A DNA stretch of 64,000 nucleotides from Chlamydoabsidia padenii (Eukaryota; Mucoromycota; Mucoromycetes; Mucorales; Cunninghamellaceae), in contig JAIWND010000001.1 of NCBI GenBank assembly GCA_025330725.1, positions 1,866,501 through 1,930,500 of the forward strand, in the 5' to 3' direction. Numbering within the stretch: position 1 is the stretch's first letter; each line of letters starts with the position of its first letter. Below are positions 4,836 through 58,694 of this stretch, piece by piece. Both the position numbers and the translations under genes were made by a program. The notes beneath the pieces were generated by a model, which did not search any database, had not been told where the DNA came from, and was given only the letters and a program-made list of their open reading frames with translations.

Positions 4836-7800
4836 CTAAGTAGGTGGTTGATAAGAGGGATGTTGTATCATTGGTGAAGATGACTGTGGAGGTTGTGGTT
4901 GATGCTGATGTGGATGTTGAAGTTGCATTTGATGTTGCTGTTGGCGTTGCAATTGCTGTTGAAGAAGTAAAGCTTGTTGGAATCGTTGTAATTGCTGCTG
5001 TTGCTGTGCCGCCAAATAACTAGGATTAGTGGCATTAGCAGTAACATTATTATTGTGTTGATTCATTAGAGGACTTGACATCATTTGAGCCGGTGGTTGT
5101 GGTTGTGGTACCTGTTGCGGTATTTGTTGATGTTGAGACTGCGGTGACATACCCATAAGTGATCCATTTCCTAACCCTTGTTGTTGTTGGTGAATATGGT
5201 GTTGCTGCTGCTGCTGCTGTTGGCGTATTTGTTGCTGTTGGGCTGCAGCATTCCTCATTTGTAATTGAGCCAAGTATCTTTGTAATTGAGCCTGTTGATT
5301 CGATGGTAGTTGTTGAATAGGATATCCCATTTGAGCCAATTGGGCCGCAAACGCAAGGCTTGTCGCTGCATTAACTGAGTTTTGCGGCTGTTGCTGCTGC
5401 TGTTGTTGCTGTGATGGTACTGATTGTTGCTGTTGAATTACCGGCGAAGCATGCTGCTGCTGTTGTTGTTGTTGAACCTGTTGTTGCTGCTGCATAACTG
5501 ACGCCAACGTGGACGCCTGATTCGCTGTGAATAACAAAAAAGGAATAATAGGAGGTTAAATGACAAATTTAAAAAAAGCTATGTGCATGCACATCCCCTT
5601 GTCTTTTTTAATTTCAAACTACATCGAGCCCGGATCTATATTACCTTGTGGTTGTTGATTCATTGGCATCATGGTATTGCTTCCAAACCGTTGCATTGGT
5701 ATTGGCACAGGCGGTCGAATCATTGGTGATGTTTGCTGCTGCTGCTGCGGAAGGGCTTGTGTTTGAGGAGAATGCTGTTGATGCAGATGCTGTTGAGCTG
5801 ACTGCTGCTGTTGGTTTTGTTGCTGCAATTGCTGCTGTACTTGTTGATGATGCTGCTGCTGTACCTGTTGTTGTTGCTGTTGCTGTTGCGCTTGTGCTGC
5901 TGCCATCAGAGCCATCTGTTGTTGTCGTAATAGTTGAAGCTGCGCCGATGGGTATCTGTTGAGGGCAGGATGCTGGTTTTGATTAGAGGGTATTGGTTGA
6001 GGTGCGCGAATAACATTGTTGTTTCCCACTGGATTGGTTGGCATACTTGAAGATCCCAATGCATTGGTACGGTTCGTTATGATCGGCGTTGCTGAAGATG
6101 TGCTTTGGATCCCCAAAACACCTGTTGTTGCTGTAGGAGGTCTTACTTGACTGGCAACTGCTGAGTGCATTCTTGGTCCAACCTAATCATTATCCAATCA
6201 AAAGTGTCATCATTAGCAAGTTGGTTTTTTCTTGACAATGCCATGTTCCTTACATTCGAGTTTGTTGTCTGGGCCCCGTTTAATCCATATAGTTGACGCT
6301 GTTCTATGAGCGCTTGTTGCCGTTCACGTTGGACCTTGTGTAAGCTAAGTTCCATGGCGGTTGGTAATCGTTTCCCACTACTATTCATACCATGAGATTC
6401 GATTGTACTTCTTAATGTGGATGCATTATCTACAAAAAAAAAAAAAAAAAAGTTGTCAATATGGCAAAACACAGACGCCCTCCCCCTTCTTCTCTTTGCA
6501 TATACTTACTAGTTGGTTTTTGTATTTCTTCCCGTTTCCTTTGTGTTTTCTTGATAGCTTCAAATATACTGTATTGTCGTTGCTTTTTCCTAGCAATGTC
6601 GAATTTCACAATCGATTGGAGTCTTGTTGGTTCATTTTCGAGTTTGGTGGCGTATGCTATAGTAGGAGGGGACATAAAAAAGTTAATGCGAGTAAGTATA
6701 CATACATATGTTCCGTTTAACCTTGATTTGTACTTACCAGGATTGATTTGACCAGATAGGGTTGTCAAATTCTTTTGCCGCCAGCGTTCATGCAGTTCCC
6801 ATGGAGTTCTTTTTTCCACAGCGACCGGTGCTCGGATAGAATTGAATGCATCGCATATGAGTTCCCAGTTGAAGGAGAACTGTGCAATTAGAGATATCAA
6901 GCATAATTCATCTTCTTCTGTCCATATACTAGGAGGTCGAGCGCCAGAGGGAGGAGCTTGAGGTGTAGGGGGTACTGTTGGCGTATCCTTGACTTTTTTA
7001 GGAGCAAATAATGCTATAATGACAGAAGAAATAGAATACAGATTAGAATCTATATGTGCGTATCACCTCTCCCCTATTTTTCTTTTTTTTAGTTTTTTTT
7101 TGCAACTTACGAGATATTAGTGTTGTATCATAACGGTCATGATCAGGTAGAGTTTCCACAGCATCTTCCACCTTGACAAAGTCCATAAGCTGACCATCAA
7201 TTGTTCTCTTCCTTGGATTGTATTTACCCCGTATCCCAGGCCGGAGTTTGAGTGTAGATAACTTGGTGACTGGGACAATACGGCCATATTCTGCTTCGTT
7301 GAAGTACGGGTCGTTCATGTTGGGGTCAGGCGGTGCATAGATCAGACGATCAGAGATCAGTGAAGTGATATCCAGGTGTTCAAAGTTTTCCATAGGTAGA
7401 GTTACTACGGTGTGATAGGGGTCGCAATCCTTGATCAGTTGTTGATAGAGTAGTTCCCATGCTGCTGTCGTTACTTGTTGCTGAGGATCACCAGTTTCTT
7501 CATCATCAGGAGTCGTTGAAGGTGAGTGGTCTGTTGTTGATGGCGGTATGTTGTTGAGCATATCCTTGTCTTCATGTTGTTCCAATTTAATATTGATCTT
7601 GTCATCCGTACCGTTGCAGTGATCATTGTTGATATCACTACTGATTTGGGTAGTGAGTCGTTGCAATTCCATTGTTTCATCCGTAGTCGAATCCTCCGTT
7701 GCTACAATATCCGTAGGCATGATATCCATTGTTGTTGTTTCCATTGCTGCTTTATCTACCTCTGTTGCATGATCAAACAAAGTGCTAGTAGAAGGTGTGT

Positions 7801-9386
7801 CCGTTTGTATATTATCCGCCTGTATTGTATCCGATGGTGCTGAGTCCAATTGTGTGCTGTCCCCTTGTGTTGTATCCATTGGTGCAATATCTACCGGCGT
7901 ATTGGATTGTGGTATTGTATCTGCCGTATTATCAATATCCATCGATGTTGAATTCATCGGTAAAGGAGATGGTAGTCGAGTTGCCACACAGACAGTTGAC
8001 TTATCTGGAGCTTGGTGCCATTCCATGACTGCCTGTCCCATCATATATGCGCTGGCGATTTTCCATTTTCGTTCCTCCTTGAAGTCGGTTCGCATCCATT
8101 TCATTTCGTCCAAAACAGAGTCCCAATGTGTCTTTGTCCTTGGTATTGATGTATGCCTTCGTATTTGTTTCAAGCTCCACATGTGTTTTGACTTGAGATA
8201 TTCGATTTGTTGTACAGTTTTGATAGATTTCAATTCTTCTCTAGCAAGCTATATAGTCAAAATAGTAGAATTAGTCAACTTTTGCATCGTCATCATCATC
8301 TACTTTATTTTCATTATGAGCTTACATTCCAATCCTGAGTGGTGAGGACTTTCCGAGCAGTTTGTAACGTCTTCAATAAAGGTTGCGCCTTGGCTTTGAG
8401 TGTCCAAGCATATAAATCAAGTTGGCCTGATTTATCACCCCGAGTATCTTCCATGCGAAGGTTGTTGTAAGACTGCACAGGCGTCAGTCGTGAATCATCA
8501 GGAGGTGGAGTGTATAACAATGTCCGTTTGGCGATATTAGAGGTAGGTGCAAGGGCTGGTAATTTGGTGGGTGTTGAGTCTGTCTGTTGATCTTGTTGTT
8601 CATCAGGCTGCTGATCCTACAAATATATTAACTGTTTAGTTAAATCAGGCCACAAAAAAGCATACTTCCTCTTTCCAATCCTTTAATTCACACTTTATAT
8701 TTACCTTTGTTGAGTCCAAGTCATTGATCTGATCCGCCGGTGTTTCTATTTCTTGATATGGTGTAGAATGCGAGTCCAGCGCGTCTACGGTAATGGATGG
8801 TGAAGGATCATTCCGATCAGGCAAGTCAATGTTCCTAGATAACAATAGTTGTCTAATGAGAAGAAAAAAGTAAGTATCAATCAGTATGTCCCAACCTGTT
8901 ATTATAAAATAAAGTGACTTACCTGAGACTATCATTTTCCCCATGAGCATTCCACTCTGCTGTATCCAGTACCGCCATATCACCATTATTGAGAAATTCC
9001 ATAAAGCTTGATTCCAGATCATCAGAAGATTGAATCATAAAGAGTTCCTTGATTAATGATTCACGATGTCGAAAGAGAGATCTAATCATAAAAGAAGAAG
9101 CATAGAACGGTAAGTATTGTTTTGAGTTTACTTCATATGGAGTGATCATCTAGTCCTTACCCCAGTTCGTTCATCAGCTGTATCTTGGTCTGAAGCCGCA
9201 AATTTAGTGATTCTTGGTTCTGAATGAAGAGTAATAAAAAAAAAATGTTAGTTCAAGTCTATTCCATGTTGTTACTTTGACACATATGGTGTCTCCAGCA
9301 TTCTACTTGTGTTTATTTCCACTTACCATATCATCAGATTCCATTCTTTCTTCGATGAGTTTGGACTCTAGAATGTCGGATGCCAT
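4836..9386 (-). CDS. EAF1: EAF1/VID21-like NuA4 complex scaffold subunit
   Basis: A large minus-strand gene with about ten exons, starting MASDILESKLIEERMESDDM at 9386. The N-terminal region is acidic. It is followed by an HSA domain (region about 7990-8230, including SKHMWSLKQIRRH, HWDSVLDEMKWM and DFKEERKWKIASAYMM), which in this family binds actin-related proteins. A SANT/Myb domain (about 6770-6945: WTEEDELCLISLIAQFSFNW...KRTPWELHERW) then targets chromatin. The C-terminal third (4836-6170) is extremely Gln-rich with long CAG/CAA tracts. HSA plus SANT plus a Gln-rich tail is the architecture of fungal Eaf1/Vid21, the platform of the NuA4 histone acetyltransferase; metazoan p400 also carries a Snf2 ATPase, absent here. 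Exon borders in the 8.2-9.3 kb part are less certain than the domain calls. Confidence 0.88.
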
Positions 9387-10456
9387 GGGCTAAATAAGAC
9401 TAGTGAAGCAGGAGACCGATTGTTGATGCTTTAATTGGTAATCGCTGTTGTCGGTATGTCGAATATAACCACCAATGACGGAAATATAAACAAGTTGAGA
9501 GTGTGTGAGCGTGCTGCCAAATTCCGTTTTGTTGGTCCCTTACCGTAATGACTTTCTAAAGAGTATAGAGAGATAGGTTCGACCGTAAAGAAGAATAAAA
9601 AGATTCATGAGTACCCCTGGTCAGATATAGCAAACCAATTACCTACCTTGAGGAAGCAAAAAGACAAGATTTGTTGTAAAAGTAGTGGTGAATTGTTGTA
9701 GTCCAAGAGCAGCGCCGTATATTGATTTGCTAGAGTTATCTTTTTCGTCTTGGATGCTGGATAAGAATTGGAAGATGGTTAAAAAGTAAATAAAAAGAAA
9801 AAAGTTGGTCAAACTGTCATGCTCTCACGTCCTTTTGACGACGGCAAGATGATTATTATACCAAAACTTACCTTTGGTCAGACCAATTAAGAGTAAGATA
9901 GGAGATAACCAACACACAGAGAAGAAAGCAGGTTTTAACAAACATATAAAACAAAGGTTAGCATTGGTCATCATCCATCATTTTCGTCATCAGTTTATTG
10001 ATTTTTTAAACCATTTACCTTTTACTAGTTCGTTTTCCCACCTTTTTCACCAATTTACACGACACAACACACACAGATACGTATGACAATGAGTAAATGT
10101 ATATAGTATTATATAGTATAAAAGTATAAACGCCAGTAAGTTGTGGAGGCAACAAGTATGGATACAAGATACCTTGGTAGATGTTGGGATCGATTAATGA
10201 GTGAAGAAGAAGAAAAAAAGGGGTGAGGAGAGGAAAGAAAAGTAAAACAAAGGCAACTGCCCGCCTGAGATTTCAAGTGCAATTTGCTAAAAACTCCGAC
10301 CCTACTAAGATTTCCAAAAATAGTCGAAAGGTGTATGTTTTTATTTATTCGTTTAAGAGAGGAAACTAATATATCATAACAAGAGGGGATAACTATACAT
10401 AACATTGGTACAATAAAAGAAAGACAGAGAGAAAAGAGATAATCACCATATACATG
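9387..10456. other. Upstream region of EAF1-like gene, possible spliced leader exons
   Basis: No coding frame is convincing. On the minus strand several donor-like sites (for example CAAAG/GTAAGTTTTGG near 9870, CTCAAG/GTAGGT near 9650, AAAAG/GTAAATGG near 10015) are spaced like non-coding leader exons of the EAF1-like gene. An unrecognised non-coding transcript is the alternative. Low certainty. Confidence 0.3.
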
Positions 10457-10636
10457 CTAATGGCGGCCACCTGTGCAGAATGGAGAGGGTGCTCCGCTCG
10501 ATCCATTTATGCAACCTGCTCTTTTGTCCAAATCAGTAATGGGAGCAGAGTTCACACCAGCAATCATGGAAATCAGCAATAAAAAAGATCCGACAAAGAA
10601 GAGAGTATTGGCTTTAGTGTTATAGTTGGTCTTCAT
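10457..10636 (-). CDS. Kex2-type secreted two-cysteine peptide precursor
   Basis: A single-exon frame of 59 residues starting at 10636. Residues about 10-30 are a strong signal peptide core (NTLFFVGSFLLLISMIAGVNS). A short propeptide APITDLDKR ends in Lys-Arg, a classical Kex2/kexin processing site. The remaining 20 residues (40-59) start AGCINGSS and end FCTGGRH, with two cysteines 12 positions apart that could form one disulphide loop. On the minus strand a TATAAATA box lies about 100 bp upstream, and an AATAAATAAAA tract follows about 100 bp downstream. I recognise no family. The layout is that of a peptide pheromone, signalling peptide or small secreted effector precursor. The ORF is short, but the ordered signal, KR site and Cys pair make chance unlikely. 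Confidence 0.68.
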   Translation of the reverse strand: MKTNYNTKANTLFFVGSFLLLISMIAGVNSAPITDLDKRAGCINGSSGAPSPFCTGGRH

Positions 10637-10735
10637 AGTGTATATGTATTGTTGAGAAAGAGAGAACGAGAGAAAAGGGGTACTGAATAAGATAGAGTGA
10701 AAAAAAAAGGAAAACAATAAGGAATGAAATGTTTG

Positions 10736-10743
10736 TATTTATA
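10736..10743 (-). promoter_or_regulatory. TATA box for the peptide precursor
   Basis: TATAAATA on the minus strand, about 100 bp before the ATG at 10636. Confidence 0.45.
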
Positions 10744-11787: not shown

Positions 11788-14700
11788 ATGCCTGGTACTA
11801 GCACAAGAATATCAGGGCCCAGTATTCGACAACCACTCCGTCATCCTCGCCCTCAACATCAGGAGCATGATATCACCGAACAAGCCGAAGGTGCTGAAGA
11901 TGATGGTGTTGCCTTTCGACAGGAACCAACTGAAGATGGTGAAGGTGTGATCCTTAATGATGAACAAGTCATTCATCATCATTTGGCTATTGGAAGTGCT
12001 CTCAGTAAACTGCCTTCCTCGACCGGGGGCTCGTCCAACTTTACTCCACAACATGACAAAGAAGGTAAACCAATCAAATCGCACGGCCCTGAAACTTTTG
12101 GTGATATTATGTTGCATCCGATCAAACAACTCGAATTTCATCGACGTCGTATGAGTGTTTTTGAACATGAAAAACACGAATGGGAGGAGAAACATCCTCA
12201 TGGGGGTGATCATCCTACTTCTGCTGGTGGAGAAAATGCTGATCATACCGAAATCGATGCATCTGCTCCTGCTAGTACTGCCGTTGATGAGGAATCACCA
12301 GCTACGCCCATGTAAGTTGGAATCGGACATTCTTTATATTTATGCATGAACTCTCATCCACTTTTTCTTTTGTATGGATAGTAAGCCCACAGTGAAAACG
12401 GGTAAATAGAAGATCTCACCAGTTGGGAAGAAAGGATCATCGAGTAAACGGGAACTATCCATACTAACACATGTGGCTTTCTTTCGGCTAGTCATCCATT
12501 TTAAGCATCTTATGGGCGAACAAGCTATCCGTGTAACCAAACCTGTCATTGACCAATTAATGGACCCGGTAAAGTGCCACGGTGCTAATTTAAAATCCCG
12601 ATGATGCGGGTATTTCAAATCCCTCTCCTTTTTTTTTTTTTTAACTAATTCTCTTTCCCTTTTTTAGCTCTCACTCACTGGCGATGAAGTCCTTCAATTA
12701 TACAAGGTCAAGGACACTGATGATCTAGTTGAATTCTTCCACCACACCAAACGCGATTACTCTCTCAAGATCCACAAGACTGTCAACCTCCATCAAAAAA
12801 GAGAAGAACTTCGTGCTGATATTGACGAAAAGAAACAAGAATTTGAAGAACGCACTCGTAAGTAGTAATCGAATTACAGACCACTCTTTATTAATTAATG
12901 CCATCTTGTTTTTATTTTAAACCATAGACTTTAAATTCAAGGGCAGTGGAGAAGAACAAGAAAAAAGCAACGATAGTTTGGTGGCCATGTCCTTGCCTAA
13001 AGGTGCTATTGAACTCAACTCGAATGTCTTTTTGGAGTTCCGTTTGATCGAAATTCAACCTGAAGCAGAACATGAAAGTACTAGACGACCTATTTTTGCG
13101 TAAGTCATGAATATTAAAAATAAGGGGGGGGGCATTATGGAATCAAGAATGCACTTGCTAACTACTACTTCTTTCATATAGACTACCTGATCCTGATTTA
13201 TCTGATGAAATTGGTGAAGAAACCTCTGCTACTTGGGTTGAACTATTCAGCGATGTGTTTTACGTTGGTTGGTTAAGGTAAAATATATTATATAGGGTTT
13301 TGTGGCAATGACCATTTATTAACTTGACCCCCTCTCTTTTTTCAAATAGCTCTTTTACTCACAGTCATCACATGGTCGACTCTTCCTCTTTGGCTGCTTA
13401 TGTTGGTTGGTTTGTAGTGATGTGGTGGACTTGGTGCTCAAGCGCTTTGTAAGTGAAAAACATGGAAATTGATACAAATGACATGTGCTAACATGGTATG
13501 ATGTTGATGTTTTTTGATTAGGTATTCTGCTCGTTATGATAATGGTGGTAAGTAAAAGAAGATCAGCTATGAAATGAAGCTTTTTGAAAAAAGGTTACTC
13601 ACATCTCATTTTTTGTTAATCTTACATTAGACGTTATGCATCATATCTACAAAATCATTGATCTTTGTGGTTTGATTGGAATGGCCGGTGCCTCCGAAGG
13701 CTACAGCACTTTTAATTCCAAAGGATTTATCATTGGTTATATGGGTAAGGAAACAAAAGAAAAAGAAAAAGAACATTGTCATGTATACTAATATTGACTT
13801 TTGTTATCAAGTGATGAAGGCAGTATTGTTGATTCAATACAGTGTTGTGTTATGGGCTGCTTCGTTATCTGGCTCTTTTGCTCGTCGACCTCTCTCCATC
13901 TATGTCAGTGTCAATATCTTGGCCATCATTCTCTGGGGTATCTCTCTTCTCTACTCTGGTGCTGAAACTGGTTCCACTAACGAAAAGATTTGTTTCGCTC
14001 TATGGTATATCAGTATTGGTGTGGAAGTTGTTGTCAATATGTCATTGCAACGCTTCAAGCAAGTCTCTTTGGCGGCAAGTCATTTGGCTGAACGATTTGG
14101 CCTCTTTACTATCATCATCTTGGGTAAGGAAAAAAAAAAAAAGATATGAAAAACACCTTGGTGATGACTATTGATACTAAAACTTTTAATACTCTGGTTA
14201 TAGGTGAAAACTGTATTGGTTTTGTCAAAATGGTATCAGAATCACATGCCGAAGTTAGAGTTGTGTAAGTAAAAGGTACAGACACAAAGGGAAACGATGT
14301 ACTAACTTTCCAATCCAATTTTGTATTTTTTATATTTTTTATGATAAATAGGGTGGCAAACATGTTTGGCTTGGTGATCATCTTCCTATTTTTCTTTATG
14401 TACTTTGATGACTTCTCTAAAGAGGTATATAATAACCTAATCGGATTTGTTTTTAATGCAGATCTAACCATTTTTTGTTATAATAGATTCTCAACTCTGT
14501 CCAAGTCAGCCAAATTTGGATGTACCTGCATTTCCCTCTGCATCTCTGTCAAGTCGCTTTTGGTATTGCGATGACAGATATCATTACTGCCTATCGACTT
14601 AATTTCGATATTCCCAACGATGCTGCTGGTACTCTTTACAGGGAATGTATGAGTTTGGAAAGTGGTAGTGCTCATGGTGGCACTCACTCTGCGTCGAACG

Positions 14701-16360: not shown

Positions 16361-17040
16361 GCAATGATTATTTTCTAGACTTCATTTCCAACCGCCGAAT
16401 ATCAAAATTCCGTGCGCCTAGCTATTCCCACTTTAAAGGAAACTCGGGATGTGGACAAACCAGGTTCACCTGTTATTGATGTGCTGAAGTAAACGAATGA
16501 CAGGTTTCATTTTTTAAATCCCGAAAATGTCTCCCTCGCATTGATGACAGGGGGGAAACAGGGCCACAGTCATCTGTTTGACTTGGTTAAATGTCTACAG
16601 ATACGTAAAGAGTAATCGCTAATTGTGTACTTATTTTCCTGCCAAAAAAGTATCCACATGCTTGAAAGGGTGATGTAGTACAATATGCATAATAGCTTTG
16701 TGAGAGAGAGGGGAAACCTTCTAAATTATTCCAACTTACTTGGCCTTATTGTTTTTGCTTTTTTGAATGGACAGTAAAGTGAAAATGGTGCATTGATAAA
16801 ATAACCCAACCCAGTTTTAGGTCTTACCATGAACTTCTTCAGATTCAGGAATTCTTTTCCTCGAATTTGATTGGCTGAAGAAAGTCTGAGAAAAAATCAT
16901 GGCCTATGAAATTCCCCAATCGTTTCAAATTCTCGACAAAACAGTCCGATCGCATATTTATTCTCTTGGGCATCCTGCCTCTCTTTCTTTCATTTTTTTT
17001 TTTCCCACTTCCTTCTTCTTTACTCACAACATTATACCTC

Positions 17041-19224
17041 ATGAAGATTACTCACTTTTTACTTCTCTTTTGCTTTTTAACTTTATTTGATTCTGGCGTT
17101 ATCACTTCTGCTAATATTGACCTTACACGATCACCAACACAAGATGCTGATACGCATCCTTCCATGTCCTCTCGCCTACCTGGTATTCCAGTTCCTGAAT
17201 TTGTGACCAACCTCTTCTCAGATAACAGCAACAGTAATCGATTAACGACAAAGGATTCTCATCTTACAATAATGCTCGGCAAACCAAGTTATGGATGGCG
17301 GCCACGATTGGAAAAGCTGATTCGTACTCTTATGGTTATCACAAATCATTATTCGACGGTATTGAACAATTGGTTGGTTAAAAATGTAGTGCACAAATTT
17401 CTTGACTGTTTGACGACTATACAATGGAAAATAATCGACTGGCGCGAATCACCTTCTCTGGAATGGTATCTTCTAAAAGCGAACTGGTCTACTTTCTTAT
17501 ATCGGTTTTACGACAACTATCTCGACTCGACTATCAAGGCATTCAAATTCGACGACAGGTTTCTGACAAAGACGATCACCAACATTGACTTTTATCACAA
17601 ATACCTGGGCAAGACAACCAAGGTTATCAACTCTTATGACAATTACCTGGAAAAGATCATCGACAATATCAACTTTAATCGTATCATCCATTGGCGCGAC
17701 ATTAACGACAAGGATACCATATTCAATAGAATTACAGGAAACATCACTAACATTCCACCGGCTCATCTCACCAATCACATCAATCTCAATCACCATGATC
17801 TCGTACCTGACCATGAAGGATGCTATCATGATATTTTCGGTACTATTCTGTGTGTGGATCAAGACAGCTTACTGAATGACGATGAACTCAAGGATCGAAT
17901 GGACACTTTATTCGAAGCAATGACATATGAAGATCGGTCTCATACACTGCGGTATAAACAACATTTTATCCAATGGGCCACTACTGCATCAAGAAGGACA
18001 ACTCGCACTCTACATCAAGCATTATCTCTCTGGTACCAACAAACACAGGTGGCATATCGATTCTTGGACGATGCGCTTGGCCTTGTTCCGTCATGCAACA
18101 ATCATCATCACACCAACAAAGACCGGTCATCATCATCTTCCTCAACTTGTCCCATCGTCTTATTCCCATTCTCCGTATCGCCTTTTGATACCTCGTTTGA
18201 TGCATCCTCATACTCTTTTAGCCACCCACTGTCTATGCGATCAACATCATCACCCTCACCCTCATGCACAACGCTTGATCGGTCATTCTTCTCACTTGCA
18301 CCTCTTCAACAACCAGGCTGGACATCATGCACACAAGACACCAACAACAACAACAACCCGAAAAAGTACGATATTCCTGATGCCTATAATCGTGATCAAT
18401 ACAACTACATGCTATCTCGACTGGAAAAGGAACTTATGGACAAGCTGAAACGATTGGAAAAGGAACTTTTACAAGAATATCATCGGGCCATGGTATCGGC
18501 GCCACATCTCTGGAAAATCAACCATCGACCTTACCAGAAACAACAATATCATGAACAGGATCATCTTCAACGACCAGGCCATGCAACACAACGAATGTAC
18601 CAACAACTTCGGCTATACATCACCATCTCCTTCCGCCAGTTATATACAAATTCAATTCAACAATTGATGGATGCGACTCGACAATACGATGTGAAGGCTA
18701 TGGAACAAGTCAAGCAAGCACGTGAAGAATGGAAATGGGTGGAACAACAACAGCAGCAACAACATTCTGGCCATCATCATCACCCACGAAAACAAGAACA
18801 AGACACCGATTATGAAGCACAATGTCAACAATGGTGGCGGAAAAAAAGACCATGGAGTCTGACTCGATCATTAGGTGAATTTTTAAACGACGACTACAAC
18901 TTTAATCTTCTCTCGGTCATTGCTTTCTTCAAACCCACAACACAACAAACAACTTTGGCACCGTCCACTACTCATGATACGAGGGCAACATTATATATCA
19001 GTCAAAGGGCGGACATGGCAATTCAACTACACCGGGAATCATTACTACAACAATGGACAACATCATTCCAAAACATCAACCGAAGGTCTCAATCGATGTG
19101 GGTTTCCGCAATGGATCAAGTACAAGGAAGGCAGCGACTAATGCCGGACTGTAAAGAGGGCTGTCAATTAGTCCTTCTTTTGGTCAAAATCTTCCTGCTG
19201 ATTCGATTCCTTTTATTCTTCTAG
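17041..19224 (+). CDS. Large single-exon secreted orphan protein
   Basis: An uninterrupted 727-codon frame. The frame is open further 5' (to 16906), but the ATG at 17041 is preferred: it gives a clean signal peptide (MKITHFLLLFCFLTLF, then SGVITSA) where the longer start would give a second, poorer hydrophobic stretch. The body has no domain I recognise. It is rich in Asn, Asp, Tyr and Trp. A loosely repetitive part at about residues 155-235 carries recurring FYDNYL/FYHKYL/YDNYLEK units, followed by a Ser/His-rich stretch and a Gln-rich helical region (about 450-620). The last 17 residues are strongly hydrophobic (LVLLLVKIFLLIRFLLFF), suggesting a membrane anchor. Absence of introns contrasts with almost every neighbour. 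Confidence 0.78.
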   Translation: MKITHFLLLFCFLTLFDSGVITSANIDLTRSPTQDADTHPSMSSRLPGIPVPEFVTNLFSDNSNSNRLTTKDSHLTIMLGKPSYGWRPRLEKLIRTLMVITNHYSTVLNNWLVKNVVHKFLDCLTTIQWKIIDWRESPSLEWYLLKANWSTFLYRFYDNYLDSTIKAFKFDDRFLTKTITNIDFYHKYLGKTTKVINSYDNYLEKIIDNINFNRIIHWRDINDKDTIFNRITGNITNIPPAHLTNHINLNHHDLVPDHEGCYHDIFGTILCVDQDSLLNDDELKDRMDTLFEAMTYEDRSHTLRYKQHFIQWATTASRRTTRTLHQALSLWYQQTQVAYRFLDDALGLVPSCNNHHHTNKDRSSSSSSTCPIVLFPFSVSPFDTSFDASSYSFSHPLSMRSTSSPSPSCTTLDRSFFSLAPLQQPGWTSCTQDTNNNNNPKKYDIPDAYNRDQYNYMLSRLEKELMDKLKRLEKELLQEYHRAMVSAPHLWKINHRPYQKQQYHEQDHLQRPGHATQRMYQQLRLYITISFRQLYTNSIQQLMDATRQYDVKAMEQVKQAREEWKWVEQQQQQQHSGHHHHPRKQEQDTDYEAQCQQWWRKKRPWSLTRSLGEFLNDDYNFNLLSVIAFFKPTTQQTTLAPSTTHDTRATLYISQRADMAIQLHRESLLQQWTTSFQNINRRSQSMWVSAMDQVQGRQRLMPDCKEGCQLVLLLVKIFLLIRFLLFF

Positions 19225-27929: not shown

Positions 27930-28899
27930 ATGCAACTCAATTATCGTCCAAGTATCCGACCACCAATATGTACTTGCAAACACAGTCATAACAAGACCCA
28001 TTGTCAACATGGCCAACAACGAAAATGGATCAAGAAAACACTTGTCACCATCCTTTTAATGTATGTGGTATACCTACTCACCAAACGACCTCCACCACGA
28101 CTGACGGTCACTCACAAAGAATGGGACGACTATATGAAGAACCATCCCTATGAAGCACCAGACGCAACAGCGGTTCGGTCACCTTGTCCCTTTCTCAACA
28201 CGTGTGCCAATCATGGCATCTTGCCACGGTCGGGGTACAACATTACTTATGATCAATACTACAAGGCCATCACAGTGGTAGGCACGACACATGAAGCAGC
28301 TATTGGATTCCTCAGTATTGTCTATCGTTTATATAAAGAAATCGATCCAGCACAATCGGTATGGTCGGACCTTCACCCTGCGGATCATCTCAGTCTCAAT
28401 CAACTAGGGTTACATAATATGGTAGAACACGACGTCTCTTTGACTCGGAGGGATATCTCGGAACAACCTGATTATAGTCGACCTGACCCTGATCGAGTAC
28501 AGTCCCTTATCGATCGTGTGGGTTCATCGAAAAAGGTGAATGTCAAACATGTTGGTGATTTTAGGCGGACCATTTGGAAGGAATCGATGCAGAAACAGCT
28601 GGGTGGATATCATTTTGGTGGGTTTTATCAGGTAATACATACATGGAACAAGAGGAAAAAGTCGATCTTTTTTTTTTTACTAATTATTGTATTTGTAGTT
28701 TGCTGCTGCCATTGAATGTGTCTTACTATTGGATTATATTGGACGCGATCATTCTATCTCTGTGGCTCATTTGGAATCCTTTGTATTGGAGGAAAGGATC
28801 CCAAAGGATTGGTACCCTATGGAAAAACCATTAACAAATTGGCAACTTTTTACTCGAACTCGAAGCTGTTTGATGTCTGTCCGGAAAAGCAAGGCCTAA
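27930..28899 (+). CDS. Membrane-anchored heme-thiolate peroxidase (chloroperoxidase/UPO family)
   Basis: Two exons (27930-28631, 28699-28899) give 300 residues. The catalytic signature is RSPCPFLNTCANHGILPRSG, whose PCP cysteine is the proximal heme thiolate ligand of the chloroperoxidase/unspecific peroxygenase family, followed by NITYDQ. The EHD motif (in VEHDVSLTRRD) supplies the metal-binding and acid-base region. Known members are usually secreted with a cleavable signal. Here the N-terminus is a basic cytosolic stretch followed by one hydrophobic helix (about residues 34-53, KKTLVTILLMYVVYLL), so a type II membrane protein is more likely. The reaction class is H2O2-dependent oxygenation or halogenation; substrate unknown. 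The EHD region and length place it with the shorter family members. Confidence 0.85.
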
Positions 28900-38534: not shown

Positions 38535-41500
38535 TTAACTTTTTGTATTAATGCTTTTTGATAAAGGCCAATCCAAACGTAAATCTTGTTCTTGATCATC
38601 CATTTCCATCATGGTTTCATTCAACAGAGGTGAAAAGAGAGCCACGTCAATAGATACCGGCCATTCATCATCATGACTATTATCGTTATCGTCCTTGGGA
38701 AGGGTTGCTGTCACATAGGTCAGAGGTTCCACCACTTCAGTCATGGTATAAATCTTGATTTTCCTTGTCGTCGCCACTGTATCCGGTCGTTCCCAAGCTG
38801 GTATATGAGTAAAAGGACAAAGAAGATCATCCGGTGTAAAAGTGCCCGTGCGTCTATGACAAGCCGAGATCCGTGGATGCCATTCCCGAGCCCTCTTATC
38901 CAATTCTTCATGACTTGTCAACTGTCCCCAGAGATCCAATACAGGCAGTTGATCGACATCAGGAAGAAGTTGTCGAGGTAGTTGATAAATCAAGGTGTCG
39001 CGTTGCATAAGAGGTACCAAGAATGTGTCGATGATGCTGACCCGCTTTTCCGATTGAACATGTGTACCTGTTTCCAGATGATTGGTGGCGAAGGATTCAA
39101 AGGATTGAAAGTTGGGATAGATCATGACATAGCCACGCAAGTACACCAGTTGGATAAAGTACTTTTTCCATGATTTCTTCCATCGATCGGATCGGCTCAT
39201 TGGCAAACTAATGTTGAGGTATTGTTCGTGAGAGAGATCGTCTAGTTGGGCCGATAAAAACGAGTGGAATTCGCGCCAATGCTCGGGGAAATAGACAGCA
39301 CCCCAGCTACAAGGAATTTGACTTGCATAAGGTGTGCGTGGGTGATACACAGTGCCTGCCAATACTTGATTTGGATCAAACGGTCTTCTTCCCACTAGAT
39401 GTAGTTCCACATTACGAGGTGAATAGAGACTAATGCCAAAGATTTGTCGAGTCAACTTTTGATCGCCATTACCATATCTGTACTTGAGAATGTTGTATTT
39501 GGCCCACGTGTAAAAAAGAGGAGACACCGAGATATCGTCTTCCAAGATAACACCATAATCATCATCATTCCGAGGATACCAGGATTCCACAATGGCAGGC
39601 ATCAATCCACCTTTTTTTATACGATGTCGAATAATTTTCCTTCCATTGGTCCATGTAAAGCTATTCACCAAATTCCGAGTCACCCTGTCAGCCGATTGTT
39701 CCATATTGATTGTCAAATCCACCCGATCACCCAAAAAGTAACTTTTGCCACATGTTTGTAAGAGTCTCGAGAAGGAGTGAGGTCGTCGATCTGTGATTGC
39801 CACTAATTGAATAGATATCCTATTCCAGTCTTTATTAAATAAGAAGATCAGTTGTTTGTTTGTTTATTTATATATGCTGTAATCATACAGAGATGCTTTC
39901 TTACGTTTCAAGGCCTTCAGGGGTAAATCAGCAATCCAAAGAGCATGACGTACTTGATTCATAGGCAAGTATATCAAAGTCAAATCGTTGTTAAATGACG
40001 ACATTGTCAAAGATAATGCCCTGTGCATAGATGAGGTAGGAGGAGAGACGTGCAGCAGGATACCAGGACGCAAGACATCAGCCAATAGTAGAATTCCATC
40101 CATCATCCTTGAGACCACATAAGCTTCATTGCTGTTGATGTAACCAGGCAGATCAAGATCATGTATCATGACAGTGCGTATTCCTAAACAGTCGCCCCGA
40201 GATGCCATTGCACGATGTAGTGTCATCCCTGATAATCCATGTTGTTTGCCAGTCACGACAATATGAAGAGGTTGTTGATGAGATCGACATAGTAATGGGT
40301 AAAGTGAATGAGCTTGATCAGATCCATGAATCAGGTACATGATTGGTACCATTTGTTGATCGTGATGTTGCGTTTTTTGGCGAGCAATACTGATTTGACG
40401 GTAATCCAAGGCAGTAGGAGTGATGTGTAATGCCTGTTGTTGAATCCACGTTTTGCTATTGATATAAGTTTGTCGAATTGTGTTACAGAGTGATGATGAA
40501 GGTGGTGACGGTGGTGATGGTGGTGGTAAGGAGATGGTGGGTATCTGTTGATGATATCGTAAAGAGCGGCTGATAAAGTAAGGTAGTGGAAGTAAAGACT
40601 GTTGAGTATGATGAATCGAGTCAAAGATCAAAGAAGCAAGCCACGATTTCTTCATCATCCAAGCACCAAGGAGCAGATCAGCAGGTTGAGAGACAGCAGG
40701 CAAATCTATCGATGGCAGACAGACAAAGTGAGGTTGTTTTACATTATCCTTGTTGACATTGGCTGGTAAGAGCATAGCATTCATTCCCACCAAGGTATCA
40801 TGATAAGCGGGTAATTGTGTTGTACGATAAAGGTAATCCAGTGTGTTATCAGGTATAGATTTGATATGAGCCAGATCCATGTCCGCCACCAACCAGAGCC
40901 AAGATGTTGATATCCATTCCAAGCGTTTGACCCACCCATAATTGTCCTTGTTTCTGTCGCTGATATCCACTATTTTTGCTGGAATCGTAGGGAGGATCAG
41001 TTCGAGTCGATCGGCGATTGTTTTTCGTGAAAGAATGGTGTTAAAAGAAGATGACACCCAGAGAATCCACAGTGCCTTGGGTTGAACCGTTTGTCGTTTA
41101 ATCATGTTCAAATAAGCATCCGTCTGTTGGAGATCAACACCATCAAGGTATATAGCCACCGTCAAGTCAAGTGTTGTCTGAGCCCAGTCCTTCTTGATTA
41201 GTGCATTCAGTTCAGAGTATGTGTGACCCTTGATGGTGTAATCTTGTAACCCTCGTAAGAATGGTGTCATAGATGAAGTGGTGGTTTTAGAGTCACGTGT
41301 GTTGATAAGTGTCCAGCCATCTAAAGATACACACGTAAAATAAAAAAGGAAGTTATTACCTTGTTTCGTTCACGAGTCCATACTCGTTCTTACCTTGTTT
41401 CCACGCCCGAAACTGTGTTCGTTCAAAAGCCAATTCTGCTTGTATTGGTAAGCTGACAAAAGTTTGATTCAAGGAGTAGTGTTGTGTGGGTGGAATATAA

Positions 41501-44109: not shown

Positions 44110-45515
44110 ATGTTCATTGTAAGCAAATCCAACTCTATTCTTGTCAAGCAAACGGCGACGGCGGTCAGCCGAAGATATCTCTCGGTCACTCCTGTCCAAC
44201 GGTTATATATCCAGAATAATTTGCATAATGATCAAACCCATGCCTCTCAAAATCCCCTGGATCCTGATGCCAAGCTTTATGACTTTAGAAGTGATACTGT
44301 CACTGCTCCTACTGATGAAATGTTTGAAGTCATGAAGAAAGCTACCAGAAATGATAGTGTTTTTGAGGTAAGTCTTTTGTTGATCACACCTGTCAATTTC
44401 GTGGCAGCCACCAAACTCAATTTATTTAACCAACTTTTTTTTTTTTCTTTCTTTTCTTTTGCTCTTCTTCCCGCTCTTCCCCTCTTCTTCTTTTTTTTTT
44501 TTTTATGTCTCTCTCTCTCTTTGGTGTCCTTCTACTCCGATAGGAAGATAATAGTGTACATGAATTGGAACGCCATGTTGCTGATCTCACTGGTCATGAA
44601 GCTGGTCTCTTTTGTGCAAGTGGTACCATGACTAATCAGCTTGGGCTCCGTGTCCATTTGACTCAACCACCTCATTCTGTTGTCTGTGATGCTCGGTCTC
44701 ATGTTCATCTCTGGGAAGCTGGTGGTATTGCCTTTCATTCTCGTGCTTCTGTTAGTCCTGTGATTGCACGCAACGGGATCCATGTCACTGCTACTGAAAT
44801 TGAAGGAAACCTGATTGAAGCTGATCTCCATACTGCTCCTACTCGTGTAGTCTCTTTGGAAAATACTCTTAGTGGAATGGTAATGCCTTTACAAGACATG
44901 CAAGAGATTGCGGCGTTGGCTCGTGACCGTGACCTGGCTATGCATTTGGACGGTGCTCGTTTATGGAATGCTCATATTGCTAGTGGGGTGCCTCTCCACG
45001 AATACGGCAAATGCTTTGACTCAATGTCCCTCTGTCTTTCCAAAGGTGTGGGTGCGCCTATTGGGTCCATGTTGGTGGGTAACAAGAAATTCATTGATCG
45101 GGCCCGTCACTTTCGCAAGTTGTTTGGTGGTGGTTGGAGACAAGCTGGGTCTATTGCGGCTGCTGCAAAGTTTTGTATCGATACGGTGGTGCCGACTATG
45201 GAAGCAACTCATTCCCTGACTCGTTACTTGGCGGATCAGCTGGTCAATATGGAGATTGATCTACAAAACCCCGTGCATACCAACATGGTGCTGATTGATA
45301 CTGCTCGGGTCGGTTTGGATATTCAAAAGGAACTGGCTCCTGCTTTGTTGCGTAAGAACATCAAGATAGGTGGAATGGGTACCAAGTCTCGTCTCGTCCT
45401 GCATCATCAAATTGATAGAGAAGGTGTGGATACTCTGTTGAACGTCTTTCGTCAAGTCTTGGCTGAACACAACACTCGTAAATTCCAACAAGATCCTCTG
45501 GTCGCCGAGGCATAA
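44110..45515 (+). CDS. GLY1: L-threonine aldolase (low specificity), PLP enzyme
   Basis: Two exons (44110-44367, 44544-45515) give 409 residues. The protein cleaves threonine to glycine and acetaldehyde. It starts with a likely mitochondrial presequence (SILVKQTATAVSRRYLSVTP). The core begins DFRSDTVTAPTDEMFEVMKKA and continues FCASGTMTNQLGLRVHL and HLDGARLWNAHIASG, which bind the cofactor. The PLP-binding Lys is in SLCLSKGVGAPIGSMLVGN, followed by RHFRKLFGGGWRQAG. All family blocks are intact. The fungal low-specificity enzyme is often cytosolic, so the N-terminal extension is a mild difference. TATAAAA lies 85 bp upstream. Secure. Confidence 0.96.
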
Positions 45516-55626: not shown

Positions 55627-57180
55627 CCGATGATTTGTTGATGCTTCTGTGGTTGGTGATGAATCTTTTCTGTTGTTTGTGGATGATGATCAATAGAGTA
55701 GAGTGGTGTCAGGAGAAGAAGAGGATAGATGGTTAAATCAACAGTAAAAGAGTCCAATATAATATAAAACACAAAAAAACACACACAAAAAAAAAAAAAC
55801 GTGTTTTGGATTATAAAAGAGAAAGAAGGGGGGGAAGAGAAACAAGTTGGAAAAAAAAAATATTGGTCCTATGGTGCTTAAGAACCAAAACAGGAATCGG
55901 GATTTCAATGTTTTGATAGGTATATAATTCAACGAAAAAGTAAATACCATGCTTCTCTTTTTCTCTTTTGGATAGACAATACTTGACATCCATGTCATGA
56001 CCTACTTAACCTCTGGCGGCTTTAACAACCAACAGTTGATTGTTGGTATCAAGTGGGTACCTTGCTTTGGCGGAACCTGTTGGATTCTATTTTTGCCCAC
56101 ACAACATCCATGAACCAAAAGTAACTCCCAAGATAAAGTGTGAACAAGAGTGGAATACAAGAAACCAACATCCCATTTTTATTATTACCTTCTTTCTAGG
56201 ACTTGGATTAAAACTTATCATGTGGGGTGCTGTGACACCTTTTAGGATGGTGATGATTATCTGGTGGTTTTCGCATTGATAAACTACCTCCTGGCATCAT
56301 TTAAACAGGTCTATTTATTTGGGTTTAGATTGCATAGTTTTTAACTTGTTTGTATAAATCATATATAATAAAAATCAATACTTCTTATTAGTAACGATTG
56401 ATTGTATGTAATCATTATGGACAAAGCTCTCTCTACTTCAGGATGTGTTCTTGATAGAAAAAAAAAAAAAAAAACTCACACTAGGACTTTATCGGTGTCG
56501 GCGCTTGAATTATATATGCAAATGTTGTCTCTTGTCGATCATGCCGGCTACTTTTTCACACACACACACACACACACAGTTTAGATAATCCTTCTTTTCA
56601 TGTATTGGGGGAGAGTTTGTTTTATAGAATGCAGTATGATGAAGTGATTGATTGACTGATTTTCTCGGATCGAGTCTATAGAGACAATTGAGGGGGGAAG
56701 GACTCGTTTCACCGATTTACAATACACTCAACTGACCTATATTAAAGTGAAAAACGTAATTCTGGATACAAATAAGCAAATGATGTCCTCCTTAAATAGA
56801 ATCAACCAAATCATCACTTTTATAATGATGATGGTGAGGAACAATGACATGAAATGATTCATTAAACTTGAAACTTTTAAAAAAAGAGTGGTCATGGAAT
56901 GAAGACAGTAGAAAAAAAAAACCTCCGTTTTATGTATGATGCATATGGGGATGAAAAAAGTGGCCCTGATCCAATCATTGCCGTAGTAGATCACGGTACC
57001 ATTTTTGCTATCAACTCAAACGACCAGTCTTTTCAAACCCCGACGGCGCCGAGGAGATAAAAGGACCAACGGCATTACGTCTTCTCTCTTTTACTTTTTT
57101 CACACTCTTATCTTTCTTTTTTTTTTTTTTTTTTTTTTTTTTTCTTTTTTTATTATTATTATTTTTACTCTTTTACATCA
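55627..57180. other. Divergent intergenic region with microsatellites
   Basis: Kinase promoter on the left (CGGGATTTCAAT at 55898, about 270 bp from its start) and protease promoter on the right, with a T run of about 26 nt at 57118-57143 directly upstream of the protease. (CA)n at 56559-56579. Open frames at 56040 and 56737 have no recognisable features. No gene seen. Confidence 0.45.
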
Positions 57181-58694
57181 ATGAAATTATCCATTATCAC
57201 CAGTGCTTTGCTACTTGCTGGCTATGCAGTGGCAGCACCTGCCATGGCTCCTTGCGATGAAGAAAAGATGGCTCCTTTGTATATTCCCGCTGAAACCGAA
57301 TCTGTCCAAGATTCTTACATTGTTGTCCTAAAGAATCATTTAAACGAACGAAACATGGAAGAACATGCTGCTTGGATTACTGCTCTTGTGGACCAAAATC
57401 AACCCTTTTATTCAAGCTGGCTCGACCCTTCTCATTCTAAACATGGTATCAAGCATATTTACGATTCGGCTGGTTTGAAGGGATACTCCGGCAAGTTTGA
57501 ACGTCAAGTCATTGACCTTATCCGCTCTTCTGATGATGTAAGTAAATCAAACAATTTGGTTTATTTATTTATTAAACCACCCATATTTAACCCTTTATCC
57601 CTCTCTCTCTCTTTTTTATCATCTAGGTCCTTTATGTTGAACAAGATTCTCTTGTCTATGCCAATGAATTACAAAGAAGCGCTCCCTGGGGTCTTGCTCG
57701 AGTATCTCATCGAGATAGATTATCCTTCAGCACATTCAACAAGTACGAATTTGATGGATCCACAGCTGGTGAAGGGGTCAAGGTCTATGTGATTGATACT
57801 GGTGTGAACATTGACCATGTAGATTTGGAAGGCCGTGCTACTTGGGGTGCTACTATTCCCTCTGGTGATCCCGATGAAGATGGAAATGGTCATGGCTCTC
57901 ACTGTGCAGGTACAATTGCTGGCAAGAAATATGGTGTGGCCAAGAAGGCTGAACCAGTGGCTGTCAAGGTCTTGCGCTCAAATGGCTCGGGTACCATGAG
58001 TGATGTGGTCGAAGGTGTTGAATGGGCTTCCATTGCTCATTCCAAGGCTGCTGAAGCTGCCAAAAAGTCTGGTAAACCTTTCAAGGGATCTGTAGCCAAC
58101 ATGTCTTTGGGTGGTGGCAAGTCTCGATCTTTGGATATTGCTGTTAATGGTGCTGTCGATGCTGGTATTGTCTTTGCTGTTGCCGCAGGTAAAGTATTGA
58201 TTAATTAATTGATAAATAGAATAACATCATATTAATTCTTCCTTTTTTTCTATGTGTGTATAGGTAATGATAATGCGGATGCATGCAACTACTCTCCTGC
58301 GTCTGCTGAAAATGCCATTACTGTGGGTGCTTCTACTCTCTCCGATGAACGTGCGTACTTCTCTAACTATGGTAAATGTGTGGATGTCTTTGCTCCTGGT
58401 TTGAACATCTTATCTATCTGGCGTGGAAGCAAGTATGCCACCAACACTATCTCTGGTACTTCCATGGCTTCTCCTCATGTCGCTGGTCTCGCTGCTTACT
58501 TGCTCAGTCAAGAAGAAGAAGGTGCAAGTCCCAAGCAAATCAAGGACAAACTCTTGAATTTGGCCACTAAGGGTGCATTGACGGATGTGGGCTCACAATC
58601 ACCCAATTTGTTGATTTACAATGGCTTTGATAAGAAGGACAAGAAAAGCTTCAAGTCCATCTTCCATGATACCTTTGCTGCCTCGGATTATTGA
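57181..58694 (+). CDS. Subtilisin-like serine protease (S8A, proteinase K/cerevisin type)
   Basis: Three exons (57181-57537, 57627-58188, 58264-58694) give 449 residues. A signal peptide (MKLSIITSALLLAGYAVAAPA) is followed by an I9 inhibitor-type prodomain (SYIVVLKNHLNERNMEEHAAWI...VLYVEQDSLVY). The catalytic triad is complete: Asp in VYVIDTGVNIDHVDLEGRA, His in GNGHGSHCAGTIAG, Ser in SGTSMASPHVAGLAAY. The oxyanion Asn is in GNDNADACNYSPAS. The 57600-57780 part, containing APWGLARVSHRD, marks the mature N-terminus. The enzyme would be secreted or vacuolar and is a general endopeptidase. Codons are biased to well-expressed use. The last residues (KSFKSIFHDTFAASDY) extend slightly past the core. 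Very secure. Confidence 0.97.

Follow-up and report, generated by a model that had tools for sequence, protein, structure and literature searches.

The window analyzed here is a 64,000-nucleotide stretch from Chlamydoabsidia padenii (Mucorales, Cunninghamellaceae), and the zygomycete origin assumed by the initial annotation is thus correct. An ORF of 59 codons is present at 10457-10636, as had been stated there without a strand; it lies on the minus strand and reads from 10636 to 10457. The order of its parts, a leader, a propeptide ending in Lys-Arg and a 20-residue tail with two cysteines, can be read directly from the ORF and agrees with the first description. The TATA box and the polyadenylation-like feature mentioned in that description were located as TATAAATA and AATAAA. 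The features of the locus are as follows:

10736..10743, minus strand: TATA box, TATAAATA, 100 nt 5' of the ATG, located by eye
10637..10716, minus strand: pyrimidine-rich 5' leader, 87% C+T at -80 to -21 (10716-10657)
10457..10636, minus strand: proposed secreted-peptide precursor, 59 codons, ATG at 10636-10634 and TAG at 10459-10457
10547..10636, minus strand: signal-peptide-like leader, residues 1-30 (or 31), assigned by hydrophobicity and the -3/-1 rule
10520..10546, minus strand: pro-stretch of 9 residues (31-39) ending in Leu-Asp-Lys-Arg, a putative Kex2 site, read from the ORF translation
10460..10519, minus strand: 20-residue tail, residues 40-59, read from the ORF translation
10344..10349, minus strand: AATAAA, 108 nt 3' of the stop codon, located by eye

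The leader has a hydrophobic core at about residues 12-27 and conforms to a crude hydrophobicity/-3,-1 rule for an ER signal peptide. Signal peptide and cleavage positions were assigned with such simple rules of thumb and are predicted only. The predicted signal peptidase cut follows Ser30; a cut after Ala31 is less likely because it would leave Pro at +1. The Lys-Arg pair corresponds to Lys38-Arg39, and the two cysteines of the tail, Cys42 and Cys54 (tail positions 3 and 15), are separated by 11 residues. The loop between them contains the only N-X-S sequon of the tail, Asn44-Gly-Ser, which the initial annotation did not mention. For the tail, we computed a charge of +0.86 at pH 7, a GRAVY value of -0.18 and, with one disulphide, a monoisotopic mass of 1872.80. 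The last residue, His, would be expected to protect the peptide against a Kex1-type carboxypeptidase. Two other ORFs, at 10454-10582 on the plus strand and at 10109-10405 on the minus strand, were taken as spurious.

The TATA box and AATAAA both lie at suitable positions for a gene. The exact TATA octamer occurs eight times in the window, both strands together, and the looser TATAWAW form 1.53 times per kb per strand. AATAAA has a background of 1.32 per kb per strand, which makes the polyadenylation-like site weak on its own. The pyrimidine-rich 5' leader gives way to a stretch in which the last 20 nt before the ATG contain 45% A, with A at -3. Among 183 small ORFs of the window, only the precursor ORF itself reaches the 87% pyrimidine level; 9 of the 2770 ATGs in the window reach it, and three combine it with the A-rich feature. 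When the comparison was extended to 264 kb, both features were found together at 3 of 10,585 ATGs, all three of them inside the window. One of these, at 44560, lies within the long coding ORF 44544-45512 (beta-eliminating lyase), showing that the leader feature is not specific and no proof of a gene. A gene for a Peroxidase_2 protein (27930-28712, plus strand) has 80% pyrimidine in the 5' context of its ATG, which would fit with pyrimidine-rich leaders marking some gene starts in this region.

Many secreted proteins of fungi have a short pro-stretch that closes with Lys-Arg. The ORF could be an incomplete piece, such as the first exon, of a longer secreted protein with an ordinary propeptide and with further exons missed. 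An upstream exon is conceivable too, since no stop codon interrupts the frame for 34 codons before the ATG. However, the best of the five GT sites inside the ORF matches common donors at only 4 of 6 positions, and a single exon is therefore likely. The TAG stop codon is moreover followed by AATAAA within 110 nt. Protein searches with the 59-residue precursor and with the 93-residue open frame (lengths up to about 163 residues) yielded no homologue, and thus no longer relative of which the ORF might be a part. Taken together, we consider a missed larger protein improbable.

The negative homology results are weak, because the search method requires three shared 5-residue words and the C. padenii genome is the only Mucorales genome covered. 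Pfam gave no match to the ORF, and searches of the window with Rfam (gathering scores) and ARAGORN returned nothing. Three matches to solved structures, the best to an SLT domain-containing protein with E 0.28, were taken as chance. The same applies to a match in Bartonella taylorii, the only one of 246 pattern-matching prokaryote stretches to pass tblastn, which covers residues 5-23 of the hydrophobic leader; in the viral collection, none of 53 pattern-matching stretches passed. Within the C. padenii genome (34.2 Mb, 95 contigs), the precursor was found at a single place, with no second copy detected by protein or DNA search. The protein library, in which one annotated C. padenii protein was seen and whose coverage of the proteome may be incomplete, holds no record for the 59 residues, and the ORF is therefore probably unannotated.

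Codon usage neither supports nor excludes coding and is uninformative here. The synonymous codon choice of the ORF scores 0.010 bits per codon, a value equalled or exceeded by 42 of the 146 small ORFs that do not lie in long ORFs; 16 of 80 coding chunks are at or below it. As coding set, we used 16 stop-to-stop frames of the window with 230 codons or more instead of curated genes.

To see how often such a layout arises by chance, we applied a crude rule (leader, dibasic site and short tail with at least two Cys) to ATG ORFs of 45-120 codons. Of 184 such ORFs in the window, 12 are leader-like and one, the precursor ORF, has the full layout. The same ORF is the only one with the full layout in 264 kb, which comprise the window and twenty 10-kb pieces of its contig and contain 748 small ORFs, 34 of them leader-like; of the 229,450 bases in all fetched loci, 2,500 are N. 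In 150 random 64-kb sequences built with the first-order base transitions of the window, the full layout appeared four times in total. The random model yields 2.5 leader-like ORFs per 64 kb versus 12 in the window and thus understates chance somewhat; since, in addition, the ORF was chosen after being seen, these rarity figures are guides rather than P-values.

If the four cases in 9.6 Mb of random sequence are scaled up, about 14 chance layouts would be expected in 34 Mb. Together with the lack of any detected homologue or second copy, the neutral codon usage and the selection of the ORF after viewing, this number fits an open frame that arose by chance and yields nothing, or a de novo ORF of recent origin in a transcribed region. 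On the other hand, the leader, the TATA box and the ATG context coincide with the layout. A leader-like start combined with a 5' context of at least 75% pyrimidine is unique to the precursor ORF among the 748 small ORFs, a comparison in which ORFs less than 100 nt from the end of a stretch could not score. This coincidence makes a chance or de novo ORF rather unlikely in our view, albeit an explanation to be taken seriously.

We lean towards a real, short gene, probably without introns, that encodes a secreted peptide and seems to have escaped annotation, and would call this reading fairly probable. Release of such a product would call for a kexin, and one is encoded in the same genome. The kexin P domain was matched four times, at three loci. 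At one of these, S8 and P domain stretches lie in adjoining frames, and the frame spanning both matches solved kexin chains with E 1.6e-45. The leader of the S. cerevisiae alpha-factor ends in LDKR, the residues that close the pro-stretch of the precursor. In a position matrix for S. cerevisiae Kex2, P4 Leu (0.09) and P3 Asp (0.27) both have low values (PMC2515848), yet LDKR works as a Kex2 site in yeast, where secretion vectors carry it as an inserted cleavage site (PMC4508530).

Processed peptides of Mucoromycota have already been predicted in print, with Kex2-processed repeat proteins (KEPs) described for 38 of 39 strains (PMC7329392). The suggestion of the initial annotation that a processed peptide would be new in itself in a zygomycete was therefore too strong. 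The roles of the predicted processed peptides in Mucoromycota are given as to be determined (PMC6339444). As predicted here, the precursor shares with KEPs, including those of Mucoromycota, an ER leader, a Kex2-type dibasic site and a short released peptide. However, the definition of a KEP calls for three or more similar repeats between dibasic sites (PMC6339444; PMC7329392), whereas the precursor has one Lys-Arg, one tail and no repeats. We thus did not class it as a KEP, even though a kexin is encoded in the genome, as the class demands. As far as their stated definitions go, two published KEP screens would miss such a precursor because both require at least three repeats.

The secretory precursor with its Lys-Arg site also resembles that of a peptide pheromone, and a Mucorales peptide pheromone or hormone working like the Ascomycota alpha-factor would be a more specific explanation. 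Two-cysteine alpha-pheromones are described for several Ascomycota classes (PMC6339444) and are, like the product proposed here, secreted and Kex2-released. As characterized in that source, alpha-type pheromones are usually repeated and carry a STE13 signature; the precursor, with one copy found, has neither repeats nor the XA/XP that defines this signature after the Kex2 site, having Ala-Gly there instead. By eye, we saw no motif shared with alpha-type pheromones, and the published example of an alpha-pheromone motif, RFCHLPGQGCSK, has a 6-residue loop as opposed to 11 residues in the tail. Searches of the genome for STE2/STE3-type receptors, which introns break and in which no control gave a signal, returned no match. 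The contig carrying the precursor has none of the 27 HMG-box matches in our list, which may miss spliced genes, and we therefore saw no link to a sex locus. Furthermore, Mucoromycotina are described as using apocarotenoids (PMC6339444), and a non-exhaustive literature search found no report of a peptide pheromone in Mucorales. A pheromone or hormone of this type is accordingly very unlikely. Of the original proposal of a processed hormone, pheromone or effector, the processed-peptide part is backed by the layout of the precursor and the kexin in the genome, whereas we found no support for a role as hormone or pheromone.

Precursors of ustiloxin-type ribosomal natural products likewise combine a signal peptide with Kex2 sites (PMC7329392), and the product might be side-chain cyclised instead of disulphide-bonded. 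The precursor contains no repeats, and a search of the genome for UstYa (DUF3328), a protein usually encoded near such precursors, gave no match, a weak result since its control was silent as well. We regard a ustiloxin-type product as highly improbable. Species-specific small secreted proteins (SSSPs) of fungi are secreted, have at most 300 residues and lack homologues in other species; the precursor resembles them in its signal-like leader, its length and the lack of a homologue in the protein searches above. With 2 Cys in 59 residues (3.4%), the precursor lies above the 3% line that some authors use for SSSPs (PMC4759460), and it differs from them in being extremely small and apparently without annotation. 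Qsp1 of Cryptococcus neoformans is also a short secreted peptide derived from a pro-peptide. It has 11 residues, is matured outside the cell by Pqp1 and is re-imported (PMC7537855), and the likeness is one of description only.

The gene for a secreted peptide thus remains our preferred reading, and the precursor is most likely an orphan, with one copy found, ordinary in kind and unconfirmed. From these features, we infer a pathway in which the transcript would start below the TATA box and the 59-residue precursor would enter the ER, where signal peptidase would cut at about Ser30/Ala31. The two tail cysteines would then form one disulphide, closing a C-x11-C ring that is possibly N-glycosylated at Asn44. 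In the late Golgi, the resident kexin would cut after Lys38-Arg39 and release the 20-residue, nearly neutral peptide. Once released, this product would probably be active extracellularly, as a small secreted peptide specific to its lineage. Our guess is a self-signalling or surface role rather than membrane lysis, given that the tail is close to neutral and lacks hydrophobic character. The layout by itself makes a signalling role possible. We give only a slim chance to the stronger version, a single-copy, disulphide-ringed, Kex2-released peptide signal that passes between hyphae beside the trisporoid system and belongs to a class invisible to repeat-based surveys.

If it is made, the peptide would be an overlooked secreted peptide of an early-diverging fungus. 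With a single repeat, it is not covered by the KEP definitions as published, so that similar genes may be absent from those surveys. As an orphan, the precursor is a lead, not a discovery.

Several other genes were noted in the window. Downstream of the proposed peptide gene, exons encoding an HSA domain and a Myb-like domain lie at 6433-8182 on the minus strand; they probably belong to an Eaf1/Vid21-type chromatin protein. On the other side of the proposed gene, a divergent ORF is present at 11788. A 772-codon ORF at 16906-19221 (plus strand) encodes a hydrophobic stretch near its start and has no Pfam match over residues 29-772. At 57061-58205 on the plus strand, the window encodes a subtilase that looks secreted and has an I9 inhibitor pro-domain. 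The annotated protein BC941DRAFT_342141 (576 residues) aligns over its whole length to the window at 95.7%, from 40340 to 38538 on the minus strand, and the ATG frame at this locus extends up to 41270 (38538-41270, minus strand). A 481-residue protein matches 97% of the 468-residue frame at 39867-41270 with 63% identity, and the annotated BC941DRAFT_342141 model may lack part of the N-terminal half.
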